The notes: generated from the letters alone by a model not told the origin. Shown: positions 44,134 to 61,226, counted from the stretch's first letter. The stretch: DNA of 64,000 bases from Desulfovibrio sp. (GCA_031272405.1 JAISTW010000050.1:40623-104622); one strand, 5' to 3'. Translations and numbers: made by a program.

Positions 44134-45030
44134 TTACCCCCGGTATTGCACTCCCAGCGCTTGCTCAAACACCTTGATCATGGCGCCTTTATCCTCTTTG
44201 CCCAGCCCCATGAGCAGCGCCTTCTGGTAGGTGGCGGTAGCCGCCGCCAGCACGGGGAGGGGGATGCCCTCCGTCGCGGAAATCAGCGCCCCACTGACAA
44301 GGTCTTTATAGGCATGGCCCAGAGGGAAGCCTTCGCTGAATCCGCCTTTCAGGATGCGCGGGATGAAGAACTCCGAAGCGTGGCTGCGTCCGGTGCCGCT
44401 GTTGACGATTTCTCCCGTCTTCACCGGGTCAAGGCCCAGCTTTACGGACATGGGCAGTATCTCGGCCAGAGCGGCCGCGTTGATGTCAAAAAGCAACTGG
44501 TTGATGAGCTTGGTTAACTGGCCGCACCCAGTGCCGCCCACATGCAGAATTTTGTTGCCGATGCGCCGGAAAAACGGCATTATCAGTTCAATGTCCTCTT
44601 CTTTTCCTCCCACCATGACGGAGAGCGTGCCGTCTTTGGCCCGTGCCTCCATGCCGGACACGGGGGCGTCCAGAAAGGCGACGTCCCTTTCCCGGCAGGC
44701 CGCCGCCACATCTTTTGTCAGGGAATAGCTTATGGTGCTGCAATCCACGACGCTCTGCCCCCTGCCCATGCAAAGCGCAAGCCCTCCTTCACCCAGCATG
44801 ACGCTTTTCACAGCCGCGTCGCCGGGCAGACAGAGAAACACTATGTCATTTCCGGCCAGATCAGAGATCCGCGTCGTGCCGCGTACCCCTTTCTTGCGAA
44901 AGGGGGCCAGACTTTCCTCATGCCGGGCGCAGACAGTCATATCCACATCTGGGCCAAGAAGATTCCAGGCCATATGCCTGCCCATCTGTCCCAGGCCCAC
45001 GAAGCCTATCGCCGTTTTTCCGCAGCTCAT
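44134..45030 (-). CDS. beta-hydroxyacid dehydrogenase family NAD(P)-dependent reductase (3-HIBADH/GlxR/YihU-like), last gene of islA-side operon
   Basis: IGFVGLGQMGRHMAWNL Rossmann motif, FLDAPVSGMEARAKDGTLSVMVGG, catalytic KLINQ. Confidence 0.9.
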   Translation of the reverse strand: MSCGKTAIGFVGLGQMGRHMAWNLLGPDVDMTVCARHEESLAPFRKKGVRGTTRISDLAGNDIVFLCLPGDAAVKSVMLGEGGLALCMGRGQSVVDCSTISYSLTKDVAAACRERDVAFLDAPVSGMEARAKDGTLSVMVGGKEEDIELIMPFFRRIGNKILHVGGTGCGQLTKLINQLLFDINAAALAEILPMSVKLGLDPVKTGEIVNSGTGRSHASEFFIPRILKGGFSEGFPLGHAYKDLVSGALISATEGIPLPVLAAATATYQKALLMGLGKEDKGAMIKVFEQALGVQYRG

Positions 45031-45092
45031 GGCGCAACGCTCCCACAACTTTTTGGCGCTACAACCGGCGCCCCCTGCCCAAAAGAGAAAGA

Positions 45093-46550
45093 TTACCGGT
45101 GTGTCCCGCCGTTTTCTTCTCCGGCAGCTTCTTCCTTTCTGCGTCCGTCCTGGGGAATATCGGAACACTCCTGGATTTTACGGAAAATGGTGCTGCGGTT
45201 GATCTGAAAAAGGTCGGCCACTTTTCGAATTGAACCGTATTCTTCTATAGCTCTGAGCAAAAAATCGCGTTCGAGTTCGGCCATAATCTGTTTCAGGGGA
45301 CGGCGCGCTGTTGGAAGGGGCAAGGAAATGGCGCCTTTTTCCTGAGAACCGCCCGAGATGTAAGAGGGCAAATCGCGGGGGGCGATAAGCGGCCCTTTGT
45401 GTGTGATGACAAGACTGTGGACAAGGTTTTGTAACTCCCGAACGTTGCCCGGCCAGGAGTAACGGGTGAGCATTTCCAGAACGACGTCCATGAAGGTCGC
45501 GACTTTTCTGTATTTCGCAGTGTACATCTGTAAAAATTGCCGCGCAAGGGGCCGGATGTCTTCCGGCCGTTCCCGCAAGGGGGGGATACGCAGTATGGCG
45601 ACATTGAGGCGATAATACAGATCCCGGCGGAATGTGCCTTTGTCCACGCATTGCGACAAATCTCTGTTGGTGGCCGCAATGATGCGCACGTCAATGTTGC
45701 GGGGAGAGGAAGAGCCGACCCGTACAATTTCACCATCCTGCAATACCCGCAACAGTCGGGACTGCATGGCGAGGGGGAGTTCCCCGATTTCATCAAGAAA
45801 CACTGTTCCGCCATCGGCAATTTCAAAATATCCCGCCTTGCCCTTGCTGGAAGCGCCGGTGAACGCCCCGGGCATGTAACCGAACATCTCCGACTCCGTC
45901 AATGTTTCGGAAATACCTCCGCAGTCCACCTTGAGCAGCATTTTGTCGTGCCTGTGACTGTAACTGTGCACAAGCCGGCCAAAGACATCCTTGCCCACTC
46001 CTGTCTCTCCAAGGATCAGGACAGTGGCGTCTGTTTCCGCGACACGGCGCAGCGTGGCCATGAGAGAGGTCATGAGGGGGCTTTCAAAGACGGGTTCCGG
46101 GGTTTTGGCCTGCTCCTGAGCGATGAAGGCCAGCTGTCCGTTCATTTGTTCGATCAAACGGCGCTGTTCGGTCATCTGTTCGCTCATCTGCATAAGCAGG
46201 GTGGTATCCCGGGCAAAGGTCACCACGAGAACAAGTTTGCCGGATTCGTTGAAAACGGGGAAACCGGACAGCACCAACTGCTTTCCGTTGCGCAATGTCT
46301 GCACATGGGTGGCCGGTTTGCCCGTAGCCACGATTTCCGGATTGAGGACGTAGTCAAAAACTCCCTCCTCAACCAGCGCGCGCACATTTTTCCCTTTGAG
46401 GCTTTCCTGGGTCAGGCCCGTGAGGTGCTCGTACATCCTGTTCACCCGCACAGTAGTCCCCTGCGGGTCGGAAATGAACAGACCATCGGGCAGAGAGTCG
46501 AGGATGCACTCAAAATGTTTGGACAGGTATTCCGTCGGCAGACTTCTCAT
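45093..46550 (-). CDS. PAS domain sigma-54-dependent transcriptional activator with Fis/TyrR-type HTH
   Basis: PAS N-terminus, GETGVGKDVFGR Walker A, GAFTGA, FLDEIGELP, C-terminal GSIRKVADLFQINRSTIFRKI. Confidence 0.95.
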   Translation of the reverse strand: MRSLPTEYLSKHFECILDSLPDGLFISDPQGTTVRVNRMYEHLTGLTQESLKGKNVRALVEEGVFDYVLNPEIVATGKPATHVQTLRNGKQLVLSGFPVFNESGKLVLVVTFARDTTLLMQMSEQMTEQRRLIEQMNGQLAFIAQEQAKTPEPVFESPLMTSLMATLRRVAETDATVLILGETGVGKDVFGRLVHSYSHRHDKMLLKVDCGGISETLTESEMFGYMPGAFTGASSKGKAGYFEIADGGTVFLDEIGELPLAMQSRLLRVLQDGEIVRVGSSSPRNIDVRIIAATNRDLSQCVDKGTFRRDLYYRLNVAILRIPPLRERPEDIRPLARQFLQMYTAKYRKVATFMDVVLEMLTRYSWPGNVRELQNLVHSLVITHKGPLIAPRDLPSYISGGSQEKGAISLPLPTARRPLKQIMAELERDFLLRAIEEYGSIRKVADLFQINRSTIFRKIQECSDIPQDGRRKEEAAGEENGGTHR

Positions 46551-46576
46551 GAGCCGCCTCTTTGGGCTGGGGTAAA

Positions 46577-47518
46577 TCAGGGACTGCGAAAGCGCTCCTT
46601 GAGAATGTCGCGCGCAGTTGATTCTACACGAGACATTATGGTCTTGTCCAGCGTCACGTCCCCCATGGAGCAGGAACGATCCAAAAACACATACTTTTGG
46701 GTTCCGAGCCTGTGGTAGGGGAGCAATTCGTAGCGTACCTGTTCATAAGGTTTCAGGAAGGCGGCAATGGCGGCAATGGCTTCTTCGTTGTCGTTAAAGC
46801 CCGGAATAACAGGGGTGCGGGCCAGCAACCTCAGATCGGGGAATTCTTCCGCCAGAATACGGAAATTTTCAAGAATGCGGGCATTGGGCGCTCCGGTGTT
46901 GGCTTCGTGCACAGCGCTGTCCATATGCTTTAAATCAAACAGGATGTCGTCAAGCAATACCCTTGCCTGACGCAGCGTTTCCGGCTGCGCCATGCCCGAT
47001 GTTTCCATGGCGGTCTTGAGACGGCGTCGTTTCGCTTCCTGGAGCAAGGCAAGGGTAAAATCTCCCTGATAGAGAGGTTCGCCGCCGGACAGCGTCATAC
47101 CGCCGCCGGAGCGGTTATAGAAAGCCGCATCCTGCTCCACCGTCCGTAACACATCGTCCACGGACATATTTTTTCCGTAAGCGACAAGCGCCTGGGCAGG
47201 ACAGGCGTCCACACAGGGTCTGTGGCAGCCCTGGCAACGCGTTCGCTCAATGTCCAGAGTCGCGTCCTGCCGACGGGTAAGCGCGTTGCGCACGCAGACT
47301 GCGGGGCAACGGACACATTTGTCCAGTCCCAGACACCTGCCCTTGTTATAGGCCAGTTCTGTCTGGTTGCTCTGAGATTCCGGATTGCTGCACCAACGGC
47401 AGGAAAGAGGGCAACCCTTGAGAAAAACGATAGTTCTGATGCCCGGTCCGTCATGGACCGAATACTTTTGGATGTTGAACACCAACCCTGTATGCCTACG
47501 ATCGGCGGCGGAAGACAT
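46577..47518 (-). CDS. islB: glycyl radical enzyme activating protein (radical SAM), IslB-like
   Basis: KGCPLSCRWCSNPESQ (CxxxCxxC), ferredoxin-like CVRCPAVC / CQGCHRPCVDACPAQAL, directly downstream of islA. Confidence 0.92.
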   Translation of the reverse strand: MSSAADRRHTGLVFNIQKYSVHDGPGIRTIVFLKGCPLSCRWCSNPESQSNQTELAYNKGRCLGLDKCVRCPAVCVRNALTRRQDATLDIERTRCQGCHRPCVDACPAQALVAYGKNMSVDDVLRTVEQDAAFYNRSGGGMTLSGGEPLYQGDFTLALLQEAKRRRLKTAMETSGMAQPETLRQARVLLDDILFDLKHMDSAVHEANTGAPNARILENFRILAEEFPDLRLLARTPVIPGFNDNEEAIAAIAAFLKPYEQVRYELLPYHRLGTQKYVFLDRSCSMGDVTLDKTIMSRVESTARDILKERFRSP

Positions 47519-47581
47519 ACGTGTCCCTTTGCGCCGGCGGCGTCCTGCAAAAGGACGCCGTCGGCCTTGTTTTAGGCCAGC

Positions 47582-50077
47582 CTAGAGCGCTCCGTGTTCC
47601 GTTCTGGCTATGAGATCGTTTTGCAGATCGGGGGACAGGTCCACAAAGTAAGCGCTGTAACCGGCAATCCGTACAATAAGATTGCGGTATTTCTGCGGAT
47701 CTTTCTGCGCAGCCAGCAGGGTGTCCTTACGGATGACGTTGAATTGCACATGCCACAATTTCAGGTCGCAGAACGTTCTGATAAAGGCGACAAGTTTTTC
47801 GGTTCCCTGCTCGCCTTCAAGACATTTGGGAGTAAACTTGATGTTGAGCATCCGGGCCGCCCTGTCGCGCATCCCCATGTTCTTTGTGCTGTAGTTGGAG
47901 AGCATGACCGCCGTCGGTCCATTGACATCCGCCCCGTGCGAAGCGGACGAGCCGTCGGACAGGGGAAACCATTCCGTACGGCCGTTGGGGGTGGCCGAGA
48001 CGACTTTGCCGAAGGGAACATGAGAGGTGAAGGGCACATAGCGCACATCGTTGTGTATGCCCAAATCCTTCATGCTGTAATTCTTTCCGTATTCGACGGA
48101 TATTTTGTCTATGGCCCTGCCGATTTCATCGGCATAGGGATCGTTGTTTCCGTAGCAGGGCGCTGTGCGCAGCAGGGCCTTGATGTCCTCGTAGCCTTCA
48201 AAATTGGCGTCAATGGCTCGGAGAAGCTCATCCATGGTCAATTTCTTTTCTTCAAAGACAAGTTTTTTCACCGCCGCCAGAGAATCCACCACTGTGCCCA
48301 ACCCCATGTATTCAAAGTAGCCGAAGTTGATCCCTTCGGGAATTTGCGGCTGGTGCAGATCAATGCAGTGCTTCATGCACAGATCGTGCATGGCCGAACC
48401 CATAGGCTGCGCGAAATGTCTCGCCCGCAGATTGATGATAATATGCTGCTGGATAAAGGCGGCTTTCATAAAGAGCATGTGCTGTTGCACATAGGCGTCC
48501 CAAAATTCCTTCCAGGTCTTAAAAAAACGGGGGTTGCCGGTTTCAACGCCCAAAAGCTGATCCCCGTACTTTTTCATCCTGCCGTTGCGCAACACCATTT
48601 CCACCGCCGCCGCGAAATTGATGTAGGCGCCGCCGGAGGTATAGGTGTCCCGATTGGGCATCCTGGCCTCGGTGCATCCCGAAACGGCGTAGTCGAGCGC
48701 CTCCTCAAAGGTCGCGCCCTTGGATACATACAGGGGAACCACTTCCTCGTCGTTGATAAGCTTTGGAAATCCGGAGCCGAACTTGATGGTTTCCGCCACG
48801 TCCCACAAATAACGCTCAGGCGCGCGGGAATGGATGCGGGCGGCCAAATCGGGATAATGCAGAGGGAATTCCCTTTTCGACTTGAGAATAAGATAGGTCA
48901 GATCATTGGTCGCGTCCCTCCCGTCCGGGGTCTGCCCGCCGACGGTAACGGCCTCCCAATGGGCATAACCCTCGTTGAAAGCGCCTCCTGTGGGAGAGAT
49001 GTACATGTCGATAAATTCCGCCATGCCCACCCACATGCATTCCAGAAGTTCAATGGCCGTCTCCTCGGTAAGGGAACCGTCTTCGATCCCCTTTTGGTAG
49101 TAGGGATAAAAGTACTGGTCCATTCTTCCATTGGAGATGGTCGTGCCGGTCTTTTGCTCCAGCCGGGAAAACATCTGGGTGAACCATTGGCTCTGGCAGG
49201 CATCGTAGAAATCTCTGGCCGGCTCTCCGGGCACGCGATCCGCAATTTCGGCCATGCGCGACAATTCCGCCTTGCGCTGCGGATTGAATTCAATGGCGGC
49301 CATTTCCCGCGCCAGGGAGGCGTGACGCTTCGCCCACAAAACGATGGCGTCGCACACAATGACGACAGCTTCCAGGAAGGGCCTTTTCTCGCAGTAATCT
49401 TTGGCGCTCAAGGGATCAAGCGCGTCAAGCTTTTCCTGTGCTTCTTTCTTGATGTCGTTGAATCCTCTTTTAAGAATTTTTTCGTAATCATGCACCCACT
49501 GTATGGATGATCTGAAAGAAGACGTTTCGTTGACGATAAACCGGGAAATCAATCCCAGCGGATCATCATAGGTCAACTTGTGAATTTCCGGCGGCAACGC
49601 GGCATTGAGGGCTTCGTGGTAGGTTTTTCCCTTCCAGTAGGGAGCTATTTCCTCAATAACCCTTTTGGCGTCTTCCGGAGTGATGGTGGCGGGAGATGTG
49701 GCCCTTGTGGGCAAATCACGGACGGCGATGTCCAGAAAATCCCCATCAAGCTCAGGATACAGTATGCCGTAGCGGCCGTCGCAGCCTGCGCGCCCCAGCA
49801 GCAACTGGTCCTCCTGCACATACACGGTGATGTTTCGCGCTATGTGCATGAGGGCCTTGGCCCAGCGCAAAACAAGGGGCTGTCCCTCCGTCTCGCGCAT
49901 GGATTGCGTAAAATAAAGGGCGCGTTCAATGTCTATGCGCGGCTTTTGTCCTTCAAAGCGCTCCAGCAGGCTGAAGACGCGGGAATGCGTTTTCCTGTAC
50001 CTGTCTTCTTTTCCCTCGATCTGATCGTGAACGCGTTGTTCCTGGGGGGACAGGCAATCACATATGACTGTGGACAT
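47582..50077 (-). CDS. islA: glycyl radical enzyme, isethionate sulfite-lyase
   Basis: Thiyl motif [10 protein letters not shown], glycyl loop RIAGYSAYF. Counted from start MSTVICDC: Arg189, Gln193, Trp374, Cys468, Glu470, matching the IslA active-site positions as I recall them. RBS AAGGAG upstream of the ATG at 50077. Confidence 0.9.
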
Positions 50078-50118
50078 GGCGCAAACTCCTTTTCTTAATT
50101 CCAAACAGCTAACGGGAC

Positions 50119-50194
50119 AAAACCCGAGATTGGCGAAATGCCGAATGGCAACCTGAAGAGCATACTTCGTGCCATCTTCGCCAATCCCGGTTTT
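50119..50194. repeat. imperfect inverted repeat flanking the islA sigma-54 promoter
   Basis: Arms 50119-50137 AAAACCCGAGATTGGCGAA and 50177-50194 TTCGCCAATCCCGGTTTT. Confidence 0.8.
50159..50174 (-). promoter_or_regulatory. sigma-54 (-24/-12) promoter for the islA operon
   Basis: Minus strand TGGCACGAAGTATGCT; GG and GC dinucleotides 12 bp apart. Confidence 0.82.
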
Positions 50195-50248
50195 TTACGC
50201 TGAAATGCGCTTGTCTCGTCACTTCTGCCAAAACAGGACGCCGTCTAG

Positions 50249-50264
50249 GTCGCAAATATGCAAC
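50249..50264. promoter_or_regulatory. candidate activator-binding dyad (site 1)
   Basis: GTCGCAAATATGCAAC, near-palindrome, about 80 bp upstream of the islA -24 element. Confidence 0.55.
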
Positions 50265-50291
50265 TATCAGGAACCATTCTTAAGATGTCCT

Positions 50292-50307
50292 GTTGTCATT
50301 TTGCATC
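50292..50307. promoter_or_regulatory. candidate weaker activator-binding site (site 2)
   Basis: GTTGTCATTTTGCATC, resembles sites 1 and 3. Confidence 0.35.
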
Positions 50308-50423
50308 ATCCCATCGAAATGGCGAAACCCGAAACGACGTACGCAACGCAAAAAGCGTCTCCGTCAGGTTGTTTCAAATTTCACAATCACCGACATTCCG
50401 GAAAGTGCCGTCAAGGGGAGAAA

Positions 50424-50439
50424 GTCGCAATTTTGCAAC
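50424..50439. promoter_or_regulatory. candidate activator-binding dyad (site 3)
   Basis: GTCGCAATTTTGCAAC, near-perfect dyad, about 100 bp upstream of the plus-strand -24 element. Confidence 0.58.
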
Positions 50440-50471
50440 ATATCATGAGGGAAAAACTGCCCGCCGAGAAA

Positions 50472-50489
50472 AATAAATACAATAAATAC
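50472..50489. repeat. 9-bp AT-rich tandem duplication AATAAATAC
   Basis: Two perfect adjacent copies between dyad site 3 and the plus-strand sigma-54 promoter. Confidence 0.85.
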
Positions 50490-50533
50490 AATAGAATAAG
50501 TATTTCTTCCCCAGTAAATCCCACACTGAAATA

Positions 50534-50549
50534 TGGCACATCGTTTGCT
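50534..50549 (+). promoter_or_regulatory. sigma-54 (-24/-12) promoter for the transporter/BMC operon
   Basis: TGGCACatcgtTTGCT; GG-GC spacing 12 bp, near-consensus. Confidence 0.88.
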
Positions 50550-50770
50550 AAGCACTCCCCGACTGCCGGCAATTGAACGGACTGCGTCGCGCGCAGATGT
50601 GACTCCACAGCAACCCGCTTTATACGTTTCGCAGATAAGCTTTGTTGAAATAAACAGTTCCAGGGAGAAACGGAAGAGCAATATCCTAATAAGGCGCTTA
50701 TGAATGTCGTCCACGAAACCTGTTCGGGGACGCGAAGCAGTATACACCATTATTCCTGTCGGAGGAGCGT

Positions 50771-51883
50771 ATGAAAAATTGCTTTCGTCTGTTGTGCGCG
50801 ATGCTCGCAACGCTGTTGAGCGTTGCCGGCGCGCAAGCCGCCCAGAAATTCACCATCGGCTTTCAACCTTATGACACCATCTCGTATCAGGTCATCGTCA
50901 ACGCGGAACTCGGACTGTGGAAAAAGTACATGCCCAAAGACGTTGAACTGGAATTTTCACCGGCCCTGCAAGGGACGATCGTGGCCAATAACATGCTGGC
51001 AGGCAAGGCCGTGGCCGGCTACATGAGCGTCATGCCCGCGACTATCCTCTGCTCCAAGGAAAAACAGGCGCGCATAAAAATGGTCGCCTCCCTCGGCATG
51101 TCGGAAGGGACGCGTTGTGCGCTGGTGCTGGTGCGCAAGGACGCTCCGAATTTCAAGAGCAACGAGGAAGTCGCCCGCTGGCTTGACGGCAAAGTCATCG
51201 CCGCCCCCAAGGGAAGCGCGTCGGATCAGTATCTGCGCCGTTTCTTCGAGCGCTACAAGGTGAAACCCGGCGAATACCTGAACCAGTCCATTGAAGTCAT
51301 CGCGACCAACTTCCGCACAGGAAAACTGGACGCCGCATCCGCGTGGGAACCCACCGCATCCCGAGTCGCCAGCGACGTGGGCGAAGGCATAGCCCGCATT
51401 GTCGCTGATGGAAGCGCGTGCGACAACCCGGATCTTGGTATCCTCGTCATGCGTGAAGACTTCATCAAGGACCATCCTGAAGCCGCCAAGGGATATCTGC
51501 GCTCCGAACTTGAAGCGCAGCGCTATCTCGTTGATCCTGCCAATCAGGAAAAGGTTGTGCAAATGGTGGCTAAATACGCCACCGGCATACCCAACAAAAT
51601 ACTCTGGTACTCCATTTACGGAAAAGTGCCCGCCACTCGTGCCAACCCGATTCGTGAGTGGAAGTCCTTCTATTTCAACAAGAAGGAACTGGACAACATC
51701 AAGGAAGTCGCTCCATTTCTGTATCAGGAGAAGGTCATTTCCATTCCCAAGCTTAGCGAATGGGCAGTGGACGACTCGCTTGCGCGGGCCGTGTTCAAGG
51801 AAGCCGGTTATAAGCCTGTTGATGACGAAGCCACGCTGGGCTACATCAAAGGGCTTCCGGCATCTGATTGTCCCTTCAAGTAG
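50771..51883 (+). CDS. ABC transporter substrate-binding protein, SsuA/TauA/NMT1-like
   Basis: Signal peptide MKNCFRLLCAMLATLLSVAGAQA; FTIGFQPYDTISYQVIVNAELGLWKKYMPKDVELEF; RBS ggagga. Confidence 0.88.
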   Translation: MKNCFRLLCAMLATLLSVAGAQAAQKFTIGFQPYDTISYQVIVNAELGLWKKYMPKDVELEFSPALQGTIVANNMLAGKAVAGYMSVMPATILCSKEKQARIKMVASLGMSEGTRCALVLVRKDAPNFKSNEEVARWLDGKVIAAPKGSASDQYLRRFFERYKVKPGEYLNQSIEVIATNFRTGKLDAASAWEPTASRVASDVGEGIARIVADGSACDNPDLGILVMREDFIKDHPEAAKGYLRSELEAQRYLVDPANQEKVVQMVAKYATGIPNKILWYSIYGKVPATRANPIREWKSFYFNKKELDNIKEVAPFLYQEKVISIPKLSEWAVDDSLARAVFKEAGYKPVDDEATLGYIKGLPASDCPFK

Positions 51884-51991
51884 CGGCTGACCCTGCTTTT
51901 TCGATTCCAGGCCGGCCACGCGGATCGCGCGGGGCCGGCCCGGAGCGAAACTGTCGCCGGGAGAACCTTTATCCAGCAAGGAGAGTTTCCC

Positions 51992-52903
51992 TTGACCACA
52001 GATACAGTCGCCAACGGCGCCAAGGGCGTCAGTGTAGGTTTGCCGGGTGCCCCGCAAGCGCCGCAAAAGCAAACCTCGGATTTCAGGCTGACCTTGATCC
52101 GCCTTAAATTCTGGCTGAAAAGTCCCTCTCCCTACCTGAATATCCTGGGACTCGCCGGTTTTCTTCTGTTCTGGTACCTCACAACGGAAGTCCTGAAACT
52201 TCCCCTGTTCGAAAAACTCCCGGGGCCCACCGCCACGCTGGACGAATGGCTGTCCCATGACCCAATGTTCGGGATTTCCTTCTTTACGCTGGAATATTAT
52301 CAGCACATCGGCATCAGCATCTGGCGCGTTTTCCAGGCCTTCGCCCTGGCAACCATGCTGGGCGTGCCCATCGGGCTGTTTATGGGGTGGAAGAAGACTT
52401 TCAAGGATTATACATTCCCCCTCCTGGAAGTGTTGCGTCCCATTCCCATGCTGGCCTGGGTTCCCCTGTCCATTCTCATGTGGCCGGGCCGCGAGGCCTC
52501 CATCGTTTTTCTCACTTTCCTGGGTTCCTTTTTCGCCACAGTCCTCAACACGCTGCTCGGCGTCGAATCCATCGACGAATGCTATTTCAGGGCGGCGGCT
52601 TCGCTCGGAGCATCGGAGAAGCAGATATTCTCCAAGGTCATAGTTCCCGGCGCCCTTCCCTTTATTTTCACCGGCCTTCAGATCAGCATGGGATACGCGT
52701 GGTTTTCGCTGGTGGCCGGTGAAATGCTGGCCGGCGAATTCGGCCTGGGCTATCTTATATGGAATTCCTACACATTGGTTCAGTATCCGGTCATCATCAT
52801 CGCCATGATCACTCTGGGCGTTATCGGTTCCCTGAGCAGTCTCATTATACGCCTTGTAGGCGACAAACTCATGCAATGGAAGGTCAGGGAGGCGGCGCAA
52901 TGA
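51992..52903 (+). CDS. ABC transporter permease (SsuC/TauC-like), TTG start
   Basis: EAA loop YFRAAASLGASEKQIFSKVIVPGALP; AAGGAG RBS before TTG. Confidence 0.88.
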   Translation: MTTDTVANGAKGVSVGLPGAPQAPQKQTSDFRLTLIRLKFWLKSPSPYLNILGLAGFLLFWYLTTEVLKLPLFEKLPGPTATLDEWLSHDPMFGISFFTLEYYQHIGISIWRVFQAFALATMLGVPIGLFMGWKKTFKDYTFPLLEVLRPIPMLAWVPLSILMWPGREASIVFLTFLGSFFATVLNTLLGVESIDECYFRAAASLGASEKQIFSKVIVPGALPFIFTGLQISMGYAWFSLVAGEMLAGEFGLGYLIWNSYTLVQYPVIIIAMITLGVIGSLSSLIIRLVGDKLMQWKVREAAQ

Positions 52904-53751
52904 ATACGGCGGGATTTGAAACAGCGGACGAAAAAAGCCGCGGAGCCATCAACATCCGCAACGTTACAAAGGTATACGATCCTGACGGGGCTTGCGTCCT
53001 GGCTGTGGACAATTGCTCCATGGACATCTCCGCTGGCGAATTTTGCGTTGTCGTCGGACCTTCGGGTTGCGGCAAGACGACGCTGCTCAACGCCATCGCG
53101 GGATTTCACGGAATCAGCGGCGGCGAGATATACCTTGACGGGGAGCTGCTCTGCACCTCTGAACGCATGCCGAAACCCGGTTCGGACAGAATCGTTGTCT
53201 TCCAGAACGGGGCGCTCTTCCCCTGGTTTACTGTTCTTGAAAACGTGACCTTCGGCCCGGTCATGCAGGGCGTCATGGCAAAAAAAGACGCCGAAGACAA
53301 AGCCCTGCATATGATGGGGCAAATGGGACTTCAGGGTATATCCATGAACTATCCCAGCGAAATATCTTCCGGCATGCGGCGCCGCGTGGAAATCGCCCGC
53401 GCTCTGATGAACAACCCCAGAGTCCTCCTGCTGGATGAACCCTTCCGCGCAATGGACGCGTTGACCAAGACAGTGGTGCATCAATTCCTGCTCAACGTCT
53501 ATGACGAGTACAAGACCACGATTTTTTTCATCACCCATGATCTGGACGAAGCCATATTTCTCGGCAGCAAGGTCTACATCATGACAACCCGTCCGGCCAC
53601 AATCAAAAAAATACTCGAAGTCACCATACCGAGACCACGGGATTTTCGCATTCTGGCCTCTCCGGAATACCAGCGTCTGCGGGACGAGTGCATTTCCGCC
53701 GTGCATGAGGAAGCCGTCAAGGCCTTCAAGGCCGGCGAGCGAGAAATGTAA
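52900..53751 (+). CDS. ABC transporter ATP-binding protein (SsuB/TauB-like), degenerate signature motif
   Basis: Walker A GPSGCGKTT, Walker B VLLLDEPF, H-loop FFITHDLDEA, signature EISSGMRRR. Confidence 0.92.
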   Translation: MNTAGFETADEKSRGAINIRNVTKVYDPDGACVLAVDNCSMDISAGEFCVVVGPSGCGKTTLLNAIAGFHGISGGEIYLDGELLCTSERMPKPGSDRIVVFQNGALFPWFTVLENVTFGPVMQGVMAKKDAEDKALHMMGQMGLQGISMNYPSEISSGMRRRVEIARALMNNPRVLLLDEPFRAMDALTKTVVHQFLLNVYDEYKTTIFFITHDLDEAIFLGSKVYIMTTRPATIKKILEVTIPRPRDFRILASPEYQRLRDECISAVHEEAVKAFKAGEREM

Positions 53752-53774
53752 CATCAACGTGGGAGGTCTGAAAC

Positions 53775-54614
53775 ATGCATGACAACGCGACGTCACCCTC
53801 ACATGGCGAAGGGCTTGCCCCCGTCGAGAACGATTTCATCAGGATTCTGAAAAAAAGGGCATCATCCGTCGCTTTCTGGCGCGGAATAGCATCCATAGTG
53901 GCGTTCACGCTTTTCTGGGAATTTTGCGCGCGCTTCCACGTCCCCGTCATAGGCAACGTGCCGGCGCCGTCCGAGGTGCTTGCCTCGCTCGCCGTGCAGA
54001 TCAAGCTTGCCTACTATTGGCTCTCCTGGGCCGACAGTATGATCCGCATCTTCACCGGCTTCATCATCGCGCAAATCATCGGCGTCCCGCTGGGATTATT
54101 TCTCGGCGCCAACAACAAGGCGCGGGAAACATTGTTTCCCATTTTTGAGATCATGCGCCCCGTGCCGCCCCTCGCTTGGGTGCCCGTCTCCGTCATTTTC
54201 TGGCCTTCCGCTGAAATGAGCATGATATTCGTCACCTTTCTCGGAGCGTTTTTCACCGTGGTGCTGAATATTGTGGAAGGCATCACAAGTATCGACATAC
54301 GCTATATCCGGGCGGCGTATTCCCTGGGCTCCACAAAACGCGACATCTTTTGGCGCGTGTTGCTGCCCGCGAGCTTGCCCAGCGTGGTCGTCGGCATGAC
54401 TGTCGGCATGGGCATCACATGGGCCGTGGTGGTAGCCGCGGAAATGATCGCCACCAATACGGGCCTCGGTTTCCTGACTTGGCGTGGCTATGTGGCTGGA
54501 GAATATCCGATTATCGTCGTCGGCATGATGAGCATCGGTTTGGCCGGGTACCTGTCGTCAGCGTTGATTCGCTACGTGGGAGCGAAGTTCACCCCCTGGC
54601 TGAAAACCAGATAA
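53775..54614 (+). CDS. ABC transporter permease (SsuC/TauC-like), second
   Basis: EAA loop YIRAAYSLGSTKRDIFWRVLLPASLP. Confidence 0.9.
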   Translation: MHDNATSPSHGEGLAPVENDFIRILKKRASSVAFWRGIASIVAFTLFWEFCARFHVPVIGNVPAPSEVLASLAVQIKLAYYWLSWADSMIRIFTGFIIAQIIGVPLGLFLGANNKARETLFPIFEIMRPVPPLAWVPVSVIFWPSAEMSMIFVTFLGAFFTVVLNIVEGITSIDIRYIRAAYSLGSTKRDIFWRVLLPASLPSVVVGMTVGMGITWAVVVAAEMIATNTGLGFLTWRGYVAGEYPIIVVGMMSIGLAGYLSSALIRYVGAKFTPWLKTR

Positions 54615-54662
54615 TCCGTTTCGGCACCCCAACCCGCCGTCAGGACACAAGGGAAGCAGCAT

Positions 54663-55553
54663 ATGATCAACAACATGTCAAATACCGGCATGCAGGCCGG
54701 CGAAATGGTCGTAGACAACCTCGTCAAGACATATGGAACGGACATTCTGACCAAGGTAGTGTTGGATGATTGCTCGTTTGTCCTGGAGCGGAGTAAATTG
54801 ACGGTGCTTGTCGGCCCGTCCGGCTGCGGCAAGAGCACCATCATCAATGTGCTCGCGGGCTATGAAAAACCGACTTCAGGAAGGGTGCTTCTTGACGGGG
54901 AGCAGATCAGCGGTCCCGGCCCCGACCGGCTGGTGGTTTTTCAGGAAACAGCCCTTTTTCCCTGGATGACCACATTTGAAAATGTCGCATACGGCCCCGA
55001 GGTCCGGAAAGAAATGAAGGGCAAAGAACTCAGGGATGCGGTCATGCATCTGCTGGAATTGGTTGGCCTGGAAGATTTCCGGGACAAGTATCCCACGCAG
55101 CTTTCCGGGGGCATGCAACGGCGGACCGAATTGGTTCGCGCCATGATCAATCACCCGAAGGTCATGTTCATGGATGAACCCTTCCGTGGACTGGACGCCA
55201 TGACCCGTTCCCTGATGCAGGAATACTATGTTAGACTTTTTGAGGAACACCGCGGAACAAATCTTTTCATCACGTCCGAGCTGGAGGAAGGCATTTTCCT
55301 TGCCGACAGGTTGGTCATCCTCACAAACCAACCCTGCCGGGTCAAAAAAATTATGAATGTCGATTTGCCGCGACCGCGCGATTTCAGCGTTATGGGCTCC
55401 TCGGAGTATCTGAATATAAAGCGGGAAGCGCTGGAACTTCTCCATGAGGAAGCAATGAAATCCTTCGCTTCAGGGGCTGTGAACGCCGCCGACTTTCTTG
55501 AGGCGTATTCCCACATGGGCGAAGACCAGGCAAAACCGCGTTCCCACGTTTAG
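54663..55553 (+). CDS. ABC transporter ATP-binding protein (SsuB/TauB-like), second, H-loop His replaced by Ser
   Basis: Walker A GPSGCGKST, signature QLSGGMQRR, Walker B VMFMDEPF, H-loop region LFITSELEEG. Confidence 0.92.
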   Translation: MINNMSNTGMQAGEMVVDNLVKTYGTDILTKVVLDDCSFVLERSKLTVLVGPSGCGKSTIINVLAGYEKPTSGRVLLDGEQISGPGPDRLVVFQETALFPWMTTFENVAYGPEVRKEMKGKELRDAVMHLLELVGLEDFRDKYPTQLSGGMQRRTELVRAMINHPKVMFMDEPFRGLDAMTRSLMQEYYVRLFEEHRGTNLFITSELEEGIFLADRLVILTNQPCRVKKIMNVDLPRPRDFSVMGSSEYLNIKREALELLHEEAMKSFASGAVNAADFLEAYSHMGEDQAKPRSHV

Positions 55554-55576
55554 CCGGGAATTTTGGAGACGCATCC

Positions 55577-56512
55577 ATGAAAATCATAGACTTTCGTTTT
55601 CGCCCCAATACGCGTGAAGTCATTGACGGCATCAAGAACAGCTCCATGTTCAAGGCAACGTGCGAAGCCATCAACTTCGACAGGCGGGTGCCACAGCTTT
55701 TGCCGGAAATAGTGGCCGATATGGAAAAACGCGGCGTGGAGCTTGCCGTGATCACGGGCAGGGATTGTGAAGTCACATACGGCTTTCCAGCCAATAACGG
55801 AAGTGTTCTGGAATTTGTCAGAGCCTATCCAAAAAAATTCATTGGCTTCTGGGGGATAGACCCGCACAAGGGGATGAAGGCTGTTTACGAAATTGTACAC
55901 GCCGTGGAAAGTGACGGTATGCGCGGCATCGCCGTGGACCCTTATCTGGCCCATATTCCGCCGCACGAGGCCCGTTATTATCCCCTGTATTCCAAATGTT
56001 GCGAATTGAAAATTCCCGTCTTCATCACGACAGCGCCTCCTCCCCAGGTGCCCCGGGCTGTTATGGACTATGTTGATCCGCGCCATGTGGACATCGTTGC
56101 CCGCGACTTCCCGGAGTTGACCATCATCATGAGCCACGGGGGCTATCCTTTCGTGAATGAAGCTATTTTCGCCTGTATGCGCAACGCCAATGTGTATATG
56201 GACCTTTCGGAATATGAACTGGCGCCCATGGCCGATGTTTACGTGCAGGCGCTCAACAGCGCCATCGGGGACAAGGTCGTTTTCGCCAGCGCCCATCCTT
56301 TTGTGGAGCAGGAAGAGGCCATACGTATTTACAACAACCTCAAGCTGAAAGACGATGTTCGCCGCAAGGTCATGTACGACAACGCTCGGCGCATCCTCGG
56401 CCTCGCCGGCGAAACGCGCTCCGAGGGACGGGAGGGTGGAAGGCCGATTCTCTCCCCTGAACTCCCACTGCCCTATCTGCCCTTTATACCAACGTCGGGA
56501 CGCATGAACTGA
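55577..56512 (+). CDS. amidohydrolase-2 (ACMSD-like) family protein with degenerate metal ligands
   Basis: TIM-barrel family features IIMSHGGYPFVNEA and NARRILGL; N-terminal HxH position reads DFRFRP; C-terminal FASAHPF where GSDxP is usual. Confidence 0.78.
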   Translation: MKIIDFRFRPNTREVIDGIKNSSMFKATCEAINFDRRVPQLLPEIVADMEKRGVELAVITGRDCEVTYGFPANNGSVLEFVRAYPKKFIGFWGIDPHKGMKAVYEIVHAVESDGMRGIAVDPYLAHIPPHEARYYPLYSKCCELKIPVFITTAPPPQVPRAVMDYVDPRHVDIVARDFPELTIIMSHGGYPFVNEAIFACMRNANVYMDLSEYELAPMADVYVQALNSAIGDKVVFASAHPFVEQEEAIRIYNNLKLKDDVRRKVMYDNARRILGLAGETRSEGREGGRPILSPELPLPYLPFIPTSGRMN

Positions 56513-56518
56513 CACCGT

Positions 56519-57868
56519 ATGAACAGGGACGAATTCATAGAAATGATACGGGCCGCAGGCGTTGTAGGCGAAGGGGGCGCCGGTTTCCCGGCGCACGTCA
56601 AGTATGCCGGGACGGCGGATACGGTCATCGCCAACGGATGTGAATGTGAACCTCTCCTGCACACGGACAGAAGCCACATGGAGCGGAATGCGCGAGATAT
56701 AGCCCAAGCCCTTGCGGAACTGCGGCGCGCGGTTGGGGCCGGCAAGGGCATTTTTGCCCTGAAGAAAAAACAGATCGGCGTCATCGACAAGGTACGCGAG
56801 GCTTGCAGGGAATTTGATCTGGAAATGGCCCTGCTTGACGATTTTTACCCCGCCGGGGATGAGCAAATACTCGTGCGCGAATTGACCGGACGTTCTGTGC
56901 CTGCCCTGGGCATCCCCCTTCAGGTGGGCTGCATAGTGGCCAACGTCGGAACGCTTGTCTCAGTAAACGCGGCATTGGGGGGCAAGCCCGTGACTCACAA
57001 GACGCTCACGGTTACCGGGGATGTGCGCAAGCCGGGGATGGTGCGCGCCCCCGTTGGGACTTCGATGGATGAATGCCTTGCCGCAGCCGGGGGAACGCTG
57101 ACGAAAGACCCTGTTTTCATTTTGGGAGGCCCCATGATGGGACGTCTTGTGGAAGACGAAGCCGCCCTGAAAAAAGAATATGTCGCTAAGGTTGACGGCG
57201 GTCTCATCGCGTTGCCGCGTGGACATTATCTGCACCACAACGCGACGCAGAAGGTGGAAAAAATGCGCCGCAGAGCCGCTGCCGCCTGTATTCAGTGCCG
57301 TTTTTGTTCGGATTTGTGTCCGCGTATGCTGATAGGACAGCCTTTTGAAACGCACAGGGTAATGCGGGTGTTCGGAGCAGACGCGGAAATGGAAAGCGAA
57401 AGCGGTACATTGGCGCACTTGTGCAGCGGGTGCGGCGTGTGCGAACACTATGCCTGCCCCATGCGTCTTTCGCCCCGTCGCGTCAATCAGGCCGTAAAAA
57501 AGGCGCTGGCCGACAAAAAAATATCCTATGAAGGCTCGCGTGAGATCAACGAACGCAGGACACAACCGCGGGAATATCGCAAAATTCCCTTGGCCCGTCT
57601 GGCGGCCCGACTTGATATCACGCGGTATATGCGCCTGGAAACGCCGGACCTCGGCACACTGACCCCCTCGGTGACGCGCGTGCCCTTGGGACGGCATATC
57701 GGCGCTCCAGCCAAACCGGTGGTGAATGTTGGACAAAAAGTGCGTTGCGGCGAGTGCATAGGGGAAATTCCAAAAAAATCCCTTGGCGCGCGGGTGCATG
57801 CGGGCATGGATGGCGTGGTTGTCTCTGTGGACGACGCGGTGACCATACGGGGTGAGAAATATGCCTGA
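56519..57868 (+). CDS. PduS/RnfC-like flavin-iron-sulfur electron transfer protein
   Basis: VGEGGAGFPAHVKYAGTADTVIANGCECEPLLHTDRSHM; CIQCRFCSDLCP and CSGCGVCEHYACP clusters. Confidence 0.92.
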   Translation: MNRDEFIEMIRAAGVVGEGGAGFPAHVKYAGTADTVIANGCECEPLLHTDRSHMERNARDIAQALAELRRAVGAGKGIFALKKKQIGVIDKVREACREFDLEMALLDDFYPAGDEQILVRELTGRSVPALGIPLQVGCIVANVGTLVSVNAALGGKPVTHKTLTVTGDVRKPGMVRAPVGTSMDECLAAAGGTLTKDPVFILGGPMMGRLVEDEAALKKEYVAKVDGGLIALPRGHYLHHNATQKVEKMRRRAAAACIQCRFCSDLCPRMLIGQPFETHRVMRVFGADAEMESESGTLAHLCSGCGVCEHYACPMRLSPRRVNQAVKKALADKKISYEGSREINERRTQPREYRKIPLARLAARLDITRYMRLETPDLGTLTPSVTRVPLGRHIGAPAKPVVNVGQKVRCGECIGEIPKKSLGARVHAGMDGVVVSVDDAVTIRGEKYA

Positions 57869-58418
57869 ACATTTCGCGGCTGTGGGGATGCTGGAGTTTT
57901 CCAGCATTGCCGAAGGAATGGAAGCGGCTGACCGAATGGTCAAGGCCGCCGAGGTCTTTCCCGTCTTTTTCAAAACAGTCTGTCCCGGTAAATATCTGGC
58001 CTGCGTCACTGGCGATGTCGCCGCCGTTTCCGCCTCGCTCGAAGCGGGCCGGGCATCGGTTTCCCCCCTTGTGGCAGACTGGTTTCTTCTGCCCAATATC
58101 CATCCCGATGTTATTTCCGCGCTTTCCGGCATGGCGCGGACAGCGGAACGCGCGGCTTTGGGAATACTTGAAACTTACTCCGCAGCTTCAATCGTCGCCG
58201 CTTCGGACGCCGCCGTCAAGGCTGCGGAGGTATGCGTGCTTGACGTGCGCATCGCCTTGGGGATCGGCGGCAAGGGCTATGCCCTGTTCGGCGGCGACGT
58301 GGCGGCCGTGCAGGCTGCTGTTGAAGCTGGTTCGCGGCAGCCTCGGGAAGCGGGGCTGCTGGTGGCCAAAGTCGTCATTCCCCGACCGGCGCAAGCCTTT
58401 TATGAACAGGTGCTTTGA
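57861..58418 (+). CDS. PduT-like tandem BMC-domain shell protein
   Basis: Two BMC domains; FFKTVCPGKYLACVTGD preserves the PduT cluster-binding Cys context; VIPRPAQAFYEQV. Confidence 0.92.
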   Translation: MPEHFAAVGMLEFSSIAEGMEAADRMVKAAEVFPVFFKTVCPGKYLACVTGDVAAVSASLEAGRASVSPLVADWFLLPNIHPDVISALSGMARTAERAALGILETYSAASIVAASDAAVKAAEVCVLDVRIALGIGGKGYALFGGDVAAVQAAVEAGSRQPREAGLLVAKVVIPRPAQAFYEQVL

Positions 58419-59536
58419 TGGCGGCTCAATCTGCAATCACCGCGGATGACGTGCGCGCGGCCCGCAAGGAAGGACGAAAGGAAATTTTTGTGCCCTCAGG
58501 AACGCTTCTGACGCCTCTGGCCAGAGACGAAGCCGGAGAATACGGAATACGTTTTGTCTTTGCCGAGGGCGCTCCGGGGGGAGAGCCCGGTGGGCGAAGA
58601 CCGGCCCGCGTTCCGGCATTACGGAATGACGGAGCCGTTTTTACAGAGGCGGCGTCAGCGATTGTGCCGGGCCAGATTATTCTGCGCGCGGGGCAACCGT
58701 TGGCGCAAGCCTTCACGCCGGCATCGTCCGCAGTCCTGTCCGACAAGACAGGCGACGCGCGAGCAGGAGAAAATACCGCAGGCCATGCAAGCTGCGAACT
58801 GGGAGTATGTATGATCTTTTTGACGGAAGACGACATTCGGCAACGCGCCATACCCGAGGGAGGAGAGCTTGTTCTTTCCGCTGCGGAGAAATTGACGCCT
58901 TCAGCCATGGAACATATCCGGGAGCGGCGTCTCCGGGTGGTCGCAAGCGGTGATGCCCGGCAGTGTTGCAAGGAATCCCCCCCAAGCGTCATCGGCGACG
59001 GGCGCGCGGAATCCGGTCTGACCCATCTTGACGCCGCGACTATGGTGGCGAAAACGCATCCGCGCATTGAGGCGCGAGGCAAGCTGGACAATCTCATGGC
59101 AGAGATTGTGTTGACTCAGACCCTTTTCGACCCCAAGAGCAAACTTCCCCCTCTTCTCAAAGACTGTCTGTCTGAACTCAAAAACTGGGTGTTTCAAACT
59201 CTGGCGGCGGAGATATCCGGCAGCATATTGCCCGAGCAGAGCATGGCCGGCATGAACCCGGATGCCTTGCGGGCCGTCTCTCGCAATCCGCGTCGCTATT
59301 TAGCTCTGGATCATTTGACGCCCGACGCGACGCTGGGCATGAACATGGCGTTTTTAAACCGTTTGCGGACACAGGTGCGCGAGACGGAACTGACTGTGGC
59401 CAAAGCAGCCCTCTGTCGCAGCGATATCGGGGAATCCCTGAACAGGCTCTCCAGCGCCGTGTACGTGCTTATGCTGTTCACGCGGCTGGCCGAAAGCGGC
59501 GGGAAATTGCCGGAAACAGGCATTAAAATCGGTTGA
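58415..59536 (+). CDS. EutT-like cobalamin adenosyltransferase-family protein with duplicated N-terminal module
   Basis: LTHLDAATMVAKTHPRIEARGKLDNL, NPRRYLALDHLTPDATLGMNMAFLNRLRTQVRETELTVAK, LNRLSSAVYVLML. Confidence 0.83.
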   Translation: MMAAQSAITADDVRAARKEGRKEIFVPSGTLLTPLARDEAGEYGIRFVFAEGAPGGEPGGRRPARVPALRNDGAVFTEAASAIVPGQIILRAGQPLAQAFTPASSAVLSDKTGDARAGENTAGHASCELGVCMIFLTEDDIRQRAIPEGGELVLSAAEKLTPSAMEHIRERRLRVVASGDARQCCKESPPSVIGDGRAESGLTHLDAATMVAKTHPRIEARGKLDNLMAEIVLTQTLFDPKSKLPPLLKDCLSELKNWVFQTLAAEISGSILPEQSMAGMNPDALRAVSRNPRRYLALDHLTPDATLGMNMAFLNRLRTQVRETELTVAKAALCRSDIGESLNRLSSAVYVLMLFTRLAESGGKLPETGIKIG

Positions 59537-59551
59537 GATCAGGGCGCGACA

Positions 59552-60598
59552 ATGTTGATCACGGAACGCAGCGCGGCGTTATGCAGGGAGAAAAAGCCGG
59601 TCGTCGTCTTTCCCGACGGGGAGGATGAGCGCGTAGTGCGCGCCGCCCTCAGATTGCGGCGCGAGGGGCTTGCCCGCCCGCTTGTTCTTGGCCGCCCGCG
59701 CGTTCTGCTGGAAATTCTGAACAGGGAAGCCGGACAGGGGGAGTGTCTGGATGTGGCGGACACGTCGTCGCCTCAACTTCTGACGCTCAACGCCAAGGAT
59801 TACATGGCCGTCATGGCGGCGCGCGGCAAAAATGTCGACCCGGCCAAGGCGGAAGATGCAGCGCGTTGCCCCTTGGTCGCGGCTTGTCTGACTGTGAAAC
59901 GGGGAGACGCCGTAGTCGGCATAGCCGGAAATACTTCCTCCACGCCGGATGTAATGCGGGCCGGGCTGCGTATTCTGGGAACGAGCCCGGGCGTGCGCAC
60001 AGTTTCGGGATTCTTTTTTATGCTTTCGCCGGACGGGAAGAACTGTTTTATTTTCGCCGACGTCGGGGTGATCCCGGAACCTACGGTGGAACAGCTTGCC
60101 GACATCAGCATCGCCTCGGCTGAACAATACAGACGAATGACGCGGGAAGAACCGCGTGTCGCGCTGCTGTCTTTCTCCACCAAGGGGAGCGCCAGACACC
60201 ACAGGGCCGAGCACGTGCGCGAAGCATTCAATCTTGTCCGCAAACGGGAGCCGCATCTGCTTGTGGACGGCGAAATACAGTTTGACGCCGCCATTGACCC
60301 GACGGTGGCCCGTAGGAAATCGCCTGACAGCCCGTTGGCCGGGCAAGCCAATGTTTTTGTTTTTCCTTCGTTGGAAGCGGGGAATATCGCCTACAAGGTT
60401 GCTCAGCGCCTGGGGGGATATACGGCTCTTGGCCCGTTTCTTCAGGGAATGAACGGCGGATGGCATGATCTATCCAGAGGCTGCAATGCGGATGATGTCT
60501 ATAAGGTGGCCCTTATAGGGTTGGCTATGGAACTTGAAAAGCGGAGTGGACTTGCGGCCGCATGTCCCGGGGACGGATCGTCGTCCGATAAACGGTAA
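59552..60598 (+). CDS. pta: phosphate acetyltransferase (Pta/EutD type)
   Basis: PTA_PTB-family features: VVFPDGEDERVVRAA, SFSTKGSARH, VDGEIQFDAAIDP, FPSLEAGNIAYKVAQRLGG. Confidence 0.92.
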   Translation: MLITERSAALCREKKPVVVFPDGEDERVVRAALRLRREGLARPLVLGRPRVLLEILNREAGQGECLDVADTSSPQLLTLNAKDYMAVMAARGKNVDPAKAEDAARCPLVAACLTVKRGDAVVGIAGNTSSTPDVMRAGLRILGTSPGVRTVSGFFFMLSPDGKNCFIFADVGVIPEPTVEQLADISIASAEQYRRMTREEPRVALLSFSTKGSARHHRAEHVREAFNLVRKREPHLLVDGEIQFDAAIDPTVARRKSPDSPLAGQANVFVFPSLEAGNIAYKVAQRLGGYTALGPFLQGMNGGWHDLSRGCNADDVYKVALIGLAMELEKRSGLAAACPGDGSSSDKR

Positions 60599-60618
60599 CC
60601 GAATAAGGAGATGAAACT

Positions 60619-60906
60619 ATGGATGCGCTCGGCATGATTGAAACCAAAGGTCTTGTGGCTTTGATCGAGGCGGCGGATGCGATGGTGAAAGCGGCGAGAG
60701 TCAGCCTTATCGCCTATGAACAGATAGGCGGCGGCTTTGTGACGGCTATCGTCAGGGGAGACGTCGCTGCATGCAAAGCCGCGACGGACGCCGGCGTGAG
60801 CGCCGTGCAACGCATGGGCGGAGAGCTCGTTTCTGTGCATGTCATCCCGCGCCCGCATAATGACCTGGAGGGAGTCTTCCCGCTTCAGCGCAAGGAATCC
60901 AATTGA
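60619..60906 (+). CDS. BMC-H (hexameric) microcompartment shell protein
   Basis: [57 protein letters not shown]. Confidence 0.96.
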
Positions 60907-60938
60907 TGTCAAACAAGACAACAGCATGGTGAAAATGT

Positions 60939-61226
60939 ATGGAACTTGCCAAGGTTGCAGGGCAGGTGGTGGCCACCGCGCGGGCGCCAGGCCTGCCCAA
61001 TAATTCGCTTCTGCTCGTCCAGTTCATCAACGAAGCGGGCAAAGTTGTCGGCGACAGCCAGGTCGCGGCAGACCCGGTCGGGGCAGGCGAAGGCGAATGG
61101 GTGCTCGTCGTGCGGGGAAGTTCCGCCCGGTGCGCCATTGACAAGGACGTGCCGGTGGATCTGGCCATAGTGGCTATAGTGGACAGCGTCTCCTCCGGTG
61201 CTGCCAATCTGTACCGCAAACATTGA
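60939..61226 (+). CDS. BMC-P (EutN/CcmL) pentameric vertex protein
   Basis: MELAKVAGQVVATARAPGLPNNSLLLVQ...GAGEGEWVLVVRGSSARCAI...DLAIVAIVDSV. Confidence 0.94.
   Translation: MELAKVAGQVVATARAPGLPNNSLLLVQFINEAGKVVGDSQVAADPVGAGEGEWVLVVRGSSARCAIDKDVPVDLAIVAIVDSVSSGAANLYRKH

Follow-up and report, generated by a model that had tools for sequence, protein, structure and literature searches.

Two ATPases with complementary motif changes in one importer locus

The DNA analysed here (the window) is a stretch of 64,000 nucleotides from Desulfovibrio sp. (GCA_031272405.1, JAISTW010000050.1:40623-104622), with positions counted from its first letter. Its plus strand encodes an ATP-binding cassette (ABC) importer with the gene order SBP-P1-A1-P2-A2: one substrate-binding protein (SBP), two permeases (P1 and P2) and two ATPases (A1 and A2). 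We propose that this importer is an obligate heteromer in which one ATP site is consensus and the other degenerate. The SBP gene (50771-51883) encodes an SsuA/TauA-like protein of the NMT1_2 fold (Pfam NMT1_2, 1.9e-14; SsuA_fam, 67.6 bits, below the family cut-off; PDB TauA, 1.7e-9). P1 (51992-52903; BPD_transp_1, 3e-27), whose best solved relatives are CmpB and NrtB, has a stop codon that overlaps the A1 start codon in an ATGA at 52900-52903. The A1 gene (52900-53751; 283 amino acids (aa); ABC_tran, 1e-31) is followed by P2 (53775-54614; BPD_transp_1, 1.4e-24) and A2 (54663-55553; 296 aa; ABC_tran, 1.2e-31), and the nearest solved relatives of both ATPases are CmpD and NrtD.

Translation of A1 showed the Walker A motif GPSGCGKT (53056-53079; G53-K59 invariant), the Q-loop residue Q102, the Walker B motif LLLDEPF (53425-53445) and the H-loop His213 (ITHDLDEA; codon at 53536-53538). 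Its signature at 53362-53376, however, reads ISSGM in place of the consensus LSGGM, the third residue being Ser157 (codon TCC at 53368-53370). A2 carries the Walker A motif GPSGCGKS (54813-54836), the signature LSGGM (55101-55115) and the Walker B motif MFMDEPF (55164-55184) with an intact catalytic Glu172, but Ser205 (ITSELEEG; codon TCC at 55275-55277) replaces its H-loop His. The remaining ATP motifs, including the Walker B Glu of both proteins, are intact. An earlier reading made from the sequence alone (the original prediction) had given the gene layout with a single SBP, the two ATPase open reading frames and the signature and H-loop motifs exactly.

Conservation of the two lesions

GTDB genomes were scanned with A1 as the query, using peptide patterns that left out the signature and the H-loop. 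Of the 429 relatives obtained, the best 80 loci, collected by A1 similarity, were kept, and together with the window they gave a motif alignment of 82 A1 and 79 A2 sequences. These loci belong to Desulfovibrio-type and other Thermodesulfobacteriota, Nitrospirota, metagenome-assembled genomes assigned to Myxococcota, and alpha-, beta- and gammaproteobacteria. The third signature residue of A1 is Ser in 81 sequences, Ala in one and Gly in none (n = 82), and the H-loop His is present in 82/82. Conversely, A2 keeps SGG in 79/79, and its H-loop residue is Ser in 67, Thr in 6, Ala in 4 and His in 2, that is, the His is gone in 77/79. The Walker A Lys, the Q-loop Gln and the Walker B Asp-Glu pair show no variation in either alignment. 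The original prediction had named restored LSGG or His in close homologs as a sign of error or decay; every close homolog still carries the two lesions, and the A2 His was found only in the two sequences mentioned, both from Nitrospirota.

The same lesion pattern was seen in further genomes sampled phylum by phylum. A1-type systems occurred in 13/395 sampled genomes of the window's phylum, where two more matches (L094 and L095) were canonical, and in 3/399 Pseudomonadota and 3/246 Nitrospirota genomes, both of the latter counts including the centre genome. A plasmid search at E 1e-70 returned no A1 relative.

As canonical controls we used 32 sequences, namely 28 single-ATPase relatives of the superfamily plus NrtC, NrtD, CmpC and CmpD; locus L138 was excluded as half of a fused protein from a second, nitrate-type lineage (see below). 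All 32 controls have Gly at the signature position and His in the H-loop (100% each). Of the 64 columns conserved in the controls, few are changed in A1 or A2. These few include the two ATP-contact columns: one subunit lacks the signature Gly and the other the H-loop His, and the two losses are invariably in trans. Conservation across 80 loci against 100% Gly and His in the controls confirms that the lesions are not due to chance. Two Arg residues are also fixed in both A1 and A2, one in the D-loop (A1 R183, A2 R175) and one following the signature, and the A2 D-loop has a further clade-specific change, G176.

The A1 signature Ser is encoded by TCG (34), TCC (24), TCA (15), TCT (7) and AGC (1), and the single Ala by GCG. 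Since all four TCN codons are used and the synonymous position is thus saturated while Ser stays fixed, the residue appears to be under purifying selection. The second system of locus L070 contains an A1-type ATPase with LSAG (GCG) in place of LSSG; GGN to GCN to TCN would be a single-step route from Gly to Ser codons.

Co-occurrence and parallel divergence of the subunits

A2 was found in 77/77 loci in which its presence could be assessed, and the other three contigs stop within ~700 bases of A1. In the ATPase tree, A1 and A2 form single sister clades (supports 100/99 and 100/100) within a joint group (97/85) distant from Nrt/Cmp, a topology that points to gene duplication because each is one clade and both make up one group. 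Pairwise distance matrices of A1 and A2 were correlated (r = 0.84; 0/2000 permutations). The permeases likewise fall into two separate clades, P1 and P2 (98/95 and 99/96), which diverged in parallel with each other as the ATPases did, and synteny is near-constant among related loci.

Both nucleotide-binding domains (NBDs) were confidently predicted to fold (AlphaFold pLDDT, the predicted local distance difference test: A1, 88.7; A2, 85.6), and the predicted folds are nearest to the ATPases of NrtBCD and CmpBCD, solved heteromeric importers with two canonical sites. Strict co-occurrence, the parallel divergence of A1/A2 and P1/P2 and near-constant synteny together support an obligate heteromer, as had been proposed from the single locus. 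The motif observation is thus confirmed, and comparative genomics supports a reading in which the subunits would assemble into one complex.

A second lineage with fused ATPases

Among the control matches were four fused two-NBD proteins whose first half has LSGG and an H-loop Asn and whose second half has LSNG and His. A wider search found a fused two-NBD protein in 14/249 Pseudomonadota genomes, and all of them showed the LSGG-Asn/LSNG-His arrangement (14/14). The fused nitrate-type ATPases lie in the Pseudomonadota loci L147-L150, L158-L171, L172 (6031-7695) and L173 (6022-7782). The plasmid-borne fused gene adjoins NirB or NirB/NirD, nitrate reductase and an NrtA-type SBP.

The fused halves fall on the Nrt/Cmp branch of the ATPase tree. 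Approximately unbiased (AU) tests rejected a common origin with A1 and A2, with p = 8e-5 when A1 was forced together with the fused C-terminal halves and p = 2e-5 when A2 was forced together with the fused N-terminal halves. Rejection of a shared grouping indicates that the trans-complementary lesion evolved twice in the superfamily.

Genomic context and candidate substrate

The importer of the window faces a divergent minus-strand neighbour, the gene for the glycyl radical enzyme HpsG (47582-50104; NF048011, 1539.5 bits, cut-off 1000), which acts on 3-sulfopropanediol, i.e. the C3 sulfonate dihydroxypropanesulfonate (DHPS). The gene for its activase HpsH lies beyond it (46577-47518, minus strand; NF048010, 441.9 bits, cut-off 430). 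As in the window, HpsG and HpsH are neighbours of the importer in each of the six Desulfovibrio-type loci that were examined (L001-L005 and L067); in L001 they close the co-directional run SBP-P1-A1-P2-A2-amidohydrolase-TauE-HpsG-HpsH. For Desulfovibrio sp. DF1, proteomics was reported to detect a DHPS-induced SsuA/TauA-type SBP whose gene stands together with genes for two ATPases and two permeases (PMC6278857). The HpsG/HpsH linkage and the DF1 parallel make DHPS the best substrate guess, and it is the likely substrate in the window genome and its Desulfovibrio-type relatives; by analogy with the DF1 proteomics, the SBP would be the DHPS binder. The locus may point to dedicated uptake of DHPS, a major sulfonate of plant origin, which feeds into the formation of H2S. 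TauE/SafE sulfite-exporter homologs are encoded close to the importer in many other loci, including those of Thiobacillus and Aminobacter.

The divergent intergenic region contains an exact sigma-54 (-24/-12) promoter consensus upstream of the SBP gene and facing the importer (50534-50549, plus strand), together with a sigma-54-like site with one mismatch facing hpsG (50159-50174, minus strand). A PAS/sigma-54 activator gene (45093-46550, minus strand; Sigma54_activat, 6e-65) encodes a candidate regulator. This promoter pair was not conserved in the related loci checked, and no Rfam family matched within 46000-61000. Between the SBP and P1 genes, at 51884-51991, lies a strong G+C-rich hairpin (minimum free energy -52.1 kcal/mol, z -3.3), which could possibly keep the SBP more highly expressed than the membrane part.

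Downstream, the same gene run continues with an amidohydrolase gene (Amidohydro_2; 55577-56512, plus strand; Pfam, 1.9e-35). An Amidohydro_2 gene also stands beside the importer in L001, L002, L067 and L155, and the window protein shares 30% identity with the Thiobacillus thioparus copy (L155, 6989-7855). Farther along the importer strand, 56519-60598 encodes a PduS/RnfC-type electron-transfer protein, a double-BMC-domain shell protein, a cobalamin adenosyltransferase and a phosphotransacetylase. Downstream of the importer in L003 and L005 there are likewise PduS-like, BMC and Pta genes. This arrangement suggests a microcompartment tie to the HpsG pathway. On the minus strand, a gene of the 3-hydroxyisobutyrate-dehydrogenase family (44134-45168), the family of the DHPS dehydrogenase DhpA in Desulfovibrio DF1, adjoins the sigma-54 activator and HpsGH genes. 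In loci of the SUP05/SAR116 type (e.g. L013, L021 and L047), a further ABC ATPase gene follows the importer in L013 and L047, and a gene for an ABC_transp_aux/GldG-like membrane protein in L013 and L021.

Proposed mechanism and alternative explanations

In the ABC sandwich, each NBD sets its Walker A, Walker B and H-loop opposite its partner's signature (PMC7756269). Since the lesions are always in trans, a standard head-to-tail NBD dimer of A1 and A2 would form one consensus and one degenerate site. The importer, a type I ABC system of the nitrate/sulfonate/taurine superfamily, would have five subunits: one SBP, a P1:P2 heterodimer and an obligate A1:A2 heterodimer. Site 1, composed of the Walker A, Walker B and His of A1 and the LSGGM of A2, would be consensus and hydrolytic; site 2, composed of the Walker A and Walker B of A2 without an H-loop His and the LSSG of A1, would bind ATP and be expected to hydrolyse it poorly. 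The trans lesions support the pairing put forward in the original prediction, and the difference in hydrolysis would follow from it. Site 2 may keep its ATP bound for long periods and so act as a clamp, with site 1 firing a single time in each cycle, and in Desulfovibrio-type importers DHPS, the likely cargo, would be handed to HpsG. We infer complex assembly, unequal hydrolysis and substrate from sequence, conservation, co-occurrence, co-divergence and operon context, and estimate at roughly 0.8 the probability that the importer is an obligate heteromer pairing a consensus site with a degenerate one, with DHPS as the likely substrate in Desulfovibrio-type genomes.

Several observations weigh against this proposal. 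The Walker B Glu of A2 is kept, so that site 2 may still hydrolyse ATP to some extent. HpsG does not adjoin the importer outside the Desulfovibrio-type group. Because the loci were chosen by A1 similarity (the best 80 of 429), remoter relatives may deviate. Finally, the two Nitrospirota loci with an A2 H-loop His (L040 and L043; codon CAT) carry LSSGV in A1, and they represent either a half-degenerate intermediate with a retained His or a reversal with a regained one; an AU test of ancestral versus regained His gave p = 0.33.

The alternative that fares best is that both sites hydrolyse about equally, LSSG and the H-loop Ser altering kinetics (with, for example, compensation by the D-loop Arg) and the asymmetry serving regulation or assembly. 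The intact Walker B Glu in both subunits and the other fixed clade-specific D-loop changes, R183 in A1 and R175 and G176 in A2, are compatible with it. The H-loop His and the second signature Gly, however, are classic gamma-phosphate contacts and 100% conserved in relatives, and the same two positions are altered in trans in the fused lineage, which leaves equal hydrolysis rather unlikely. Two permeases and two ATPases could also make two independent homodimeric importers, or interchangeable ATPases could act on one SBP, with the motif changes as tolerated drift and with Walker A, Walker B and the Q-loop intact in both proteins. Each homodimer would then contain two defective sites (LSSG twice, or His absent twice), the lesions are fixed across several phyla despite saturated synonymous codons, and A1 never occurs without A2 wherever the contig permits judging; fixation, codon saturation and strict co-occurrence led us to reject this highly improbable scheme. 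Sequencing or assembly error, or operon decay, in a draft genome of 80 contigs that is ~81% complete is refuted by open frames throughout and by the same residues in independent genomes, including those of the isolates Fundidesulfovibrio agrisoli, Desulfovibrio sp. A2 and Thiobacillus thioparus.

Comparison with known systems

The SsuA/TauA/NrtA-like SBP, TauC/NrtB-like permease and TauB/NrtD-like ATPase place the importer in the NitT/TauT type I group. From its Pfam/NCBIfam placement, with all five proteins below the TauABC and SsuABC equivalog cut-offs, it is a superfamily member and not TauABC or SsuABC proper. SsuABC and TauABC each have one permease gene and one ATPase gene. They share superfamily, SBP type and substrate class with the window importer and are its top NCBIfam neighbours, but the window has two permeases and two ATPases, both of which deviate, whereas the sampled single-ATPase relatives are canonical. 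The original prediction held SsuABC/TauABC importers to be usually homodimeric; this needs an exception for NrtC/NrtD and CmpC/CmpD, which carry two canonical sites.

Among solved structures, NrtBCD and CmpBCD, the cyanobacterial nitrate and bicarbonate importers (PDB 8w9m and 9ua1), are closest to both ATPases and to the permease; they belong to the same superfamily and likewise build a type I importer with two different ATPases. They have one permease gene, and their ATPases carry LSGG or ISGG with His, making both sites canonical. NrtC and CmpC are chains of 665-690 aa with a C-terminal SBP-like extension, which A1 (283 aa) and A2 (296 aa) lack; these lengths, the two permeases and the motif lesions set the window importer outside NrtBCD/CmpBCD. 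In gene content (SBP, two ATPases, two permeases) and in its DHPS link, it resembles the DF1 transporter (locus 130632 region), although DF1 degrades DHPS through DhpA/SlaB/SuyAB and not HpsG; the accessible part of that account does not discuss the ATPase motifs (PMC6278857).

A consensus and a degenerate site created by trans-complementary lesions are also found in TAP1/2, TM287/288, MRP1 and CFTR, a parallel and not family membership. The same two positions are altered in CFTR, with an H-loop Ser in NBD1 and LSHG in NBD2. The H-loop of ABCC7 has been described as deviating (PMC7756269). As in that class, the importer has two distinct NBDs with trans-complementary motif loss. However, those proteins are exporters or a channel in which the Walker B Glu is usually, though not universally, replaced too, whereas the SBP-dependent window importer keeps both (82/82 and 79/79); the exporter parallel drawn in the original prediction thus holds for the trans asymmetry and not for the catalytic Glu. 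Importers with one degenerate ATP site are known from the fused NBDs of RbsA and NupO in B. subtilis (PMC11466899), which are type II and form one chain; in both, the Lys of the second Walker A is lost, and NupO has lost Walker B residues too.

A literature search, with subscription papers outside its reach, found no account of this motif pattern in importers. The superfamily and the degenerate-site principle are known; what is new is their combination in a type I importer that depends on an SBP and encodes its NBDs in separate genes, together with the independent repeat of the pattern. We consider it probable that type I importers with a single hydrolytic site form a conserved class with at least two convergent origins, one sulfonate-type with LSSG and an H-loop Ser and one fused nitrate-type with LSNG and an H-loop Asn, in which hydrolysis at one site was repeatedly removed, in trans, at the positions altered in CFTR. 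The debate on whether two sites must hydrolyse in each cycle of a type I importer has drawn on engineered MalK and HisP mutants. The importer offers a natural test of whether two working ATP sites are needed and extends the degenerate-site question beyond exporters and CFTR; putative one-site importers fixed by evolution across several phyla, set against the solved two-site NrtCD and CmpCD (ATP state), would provide a clean natural comparison.

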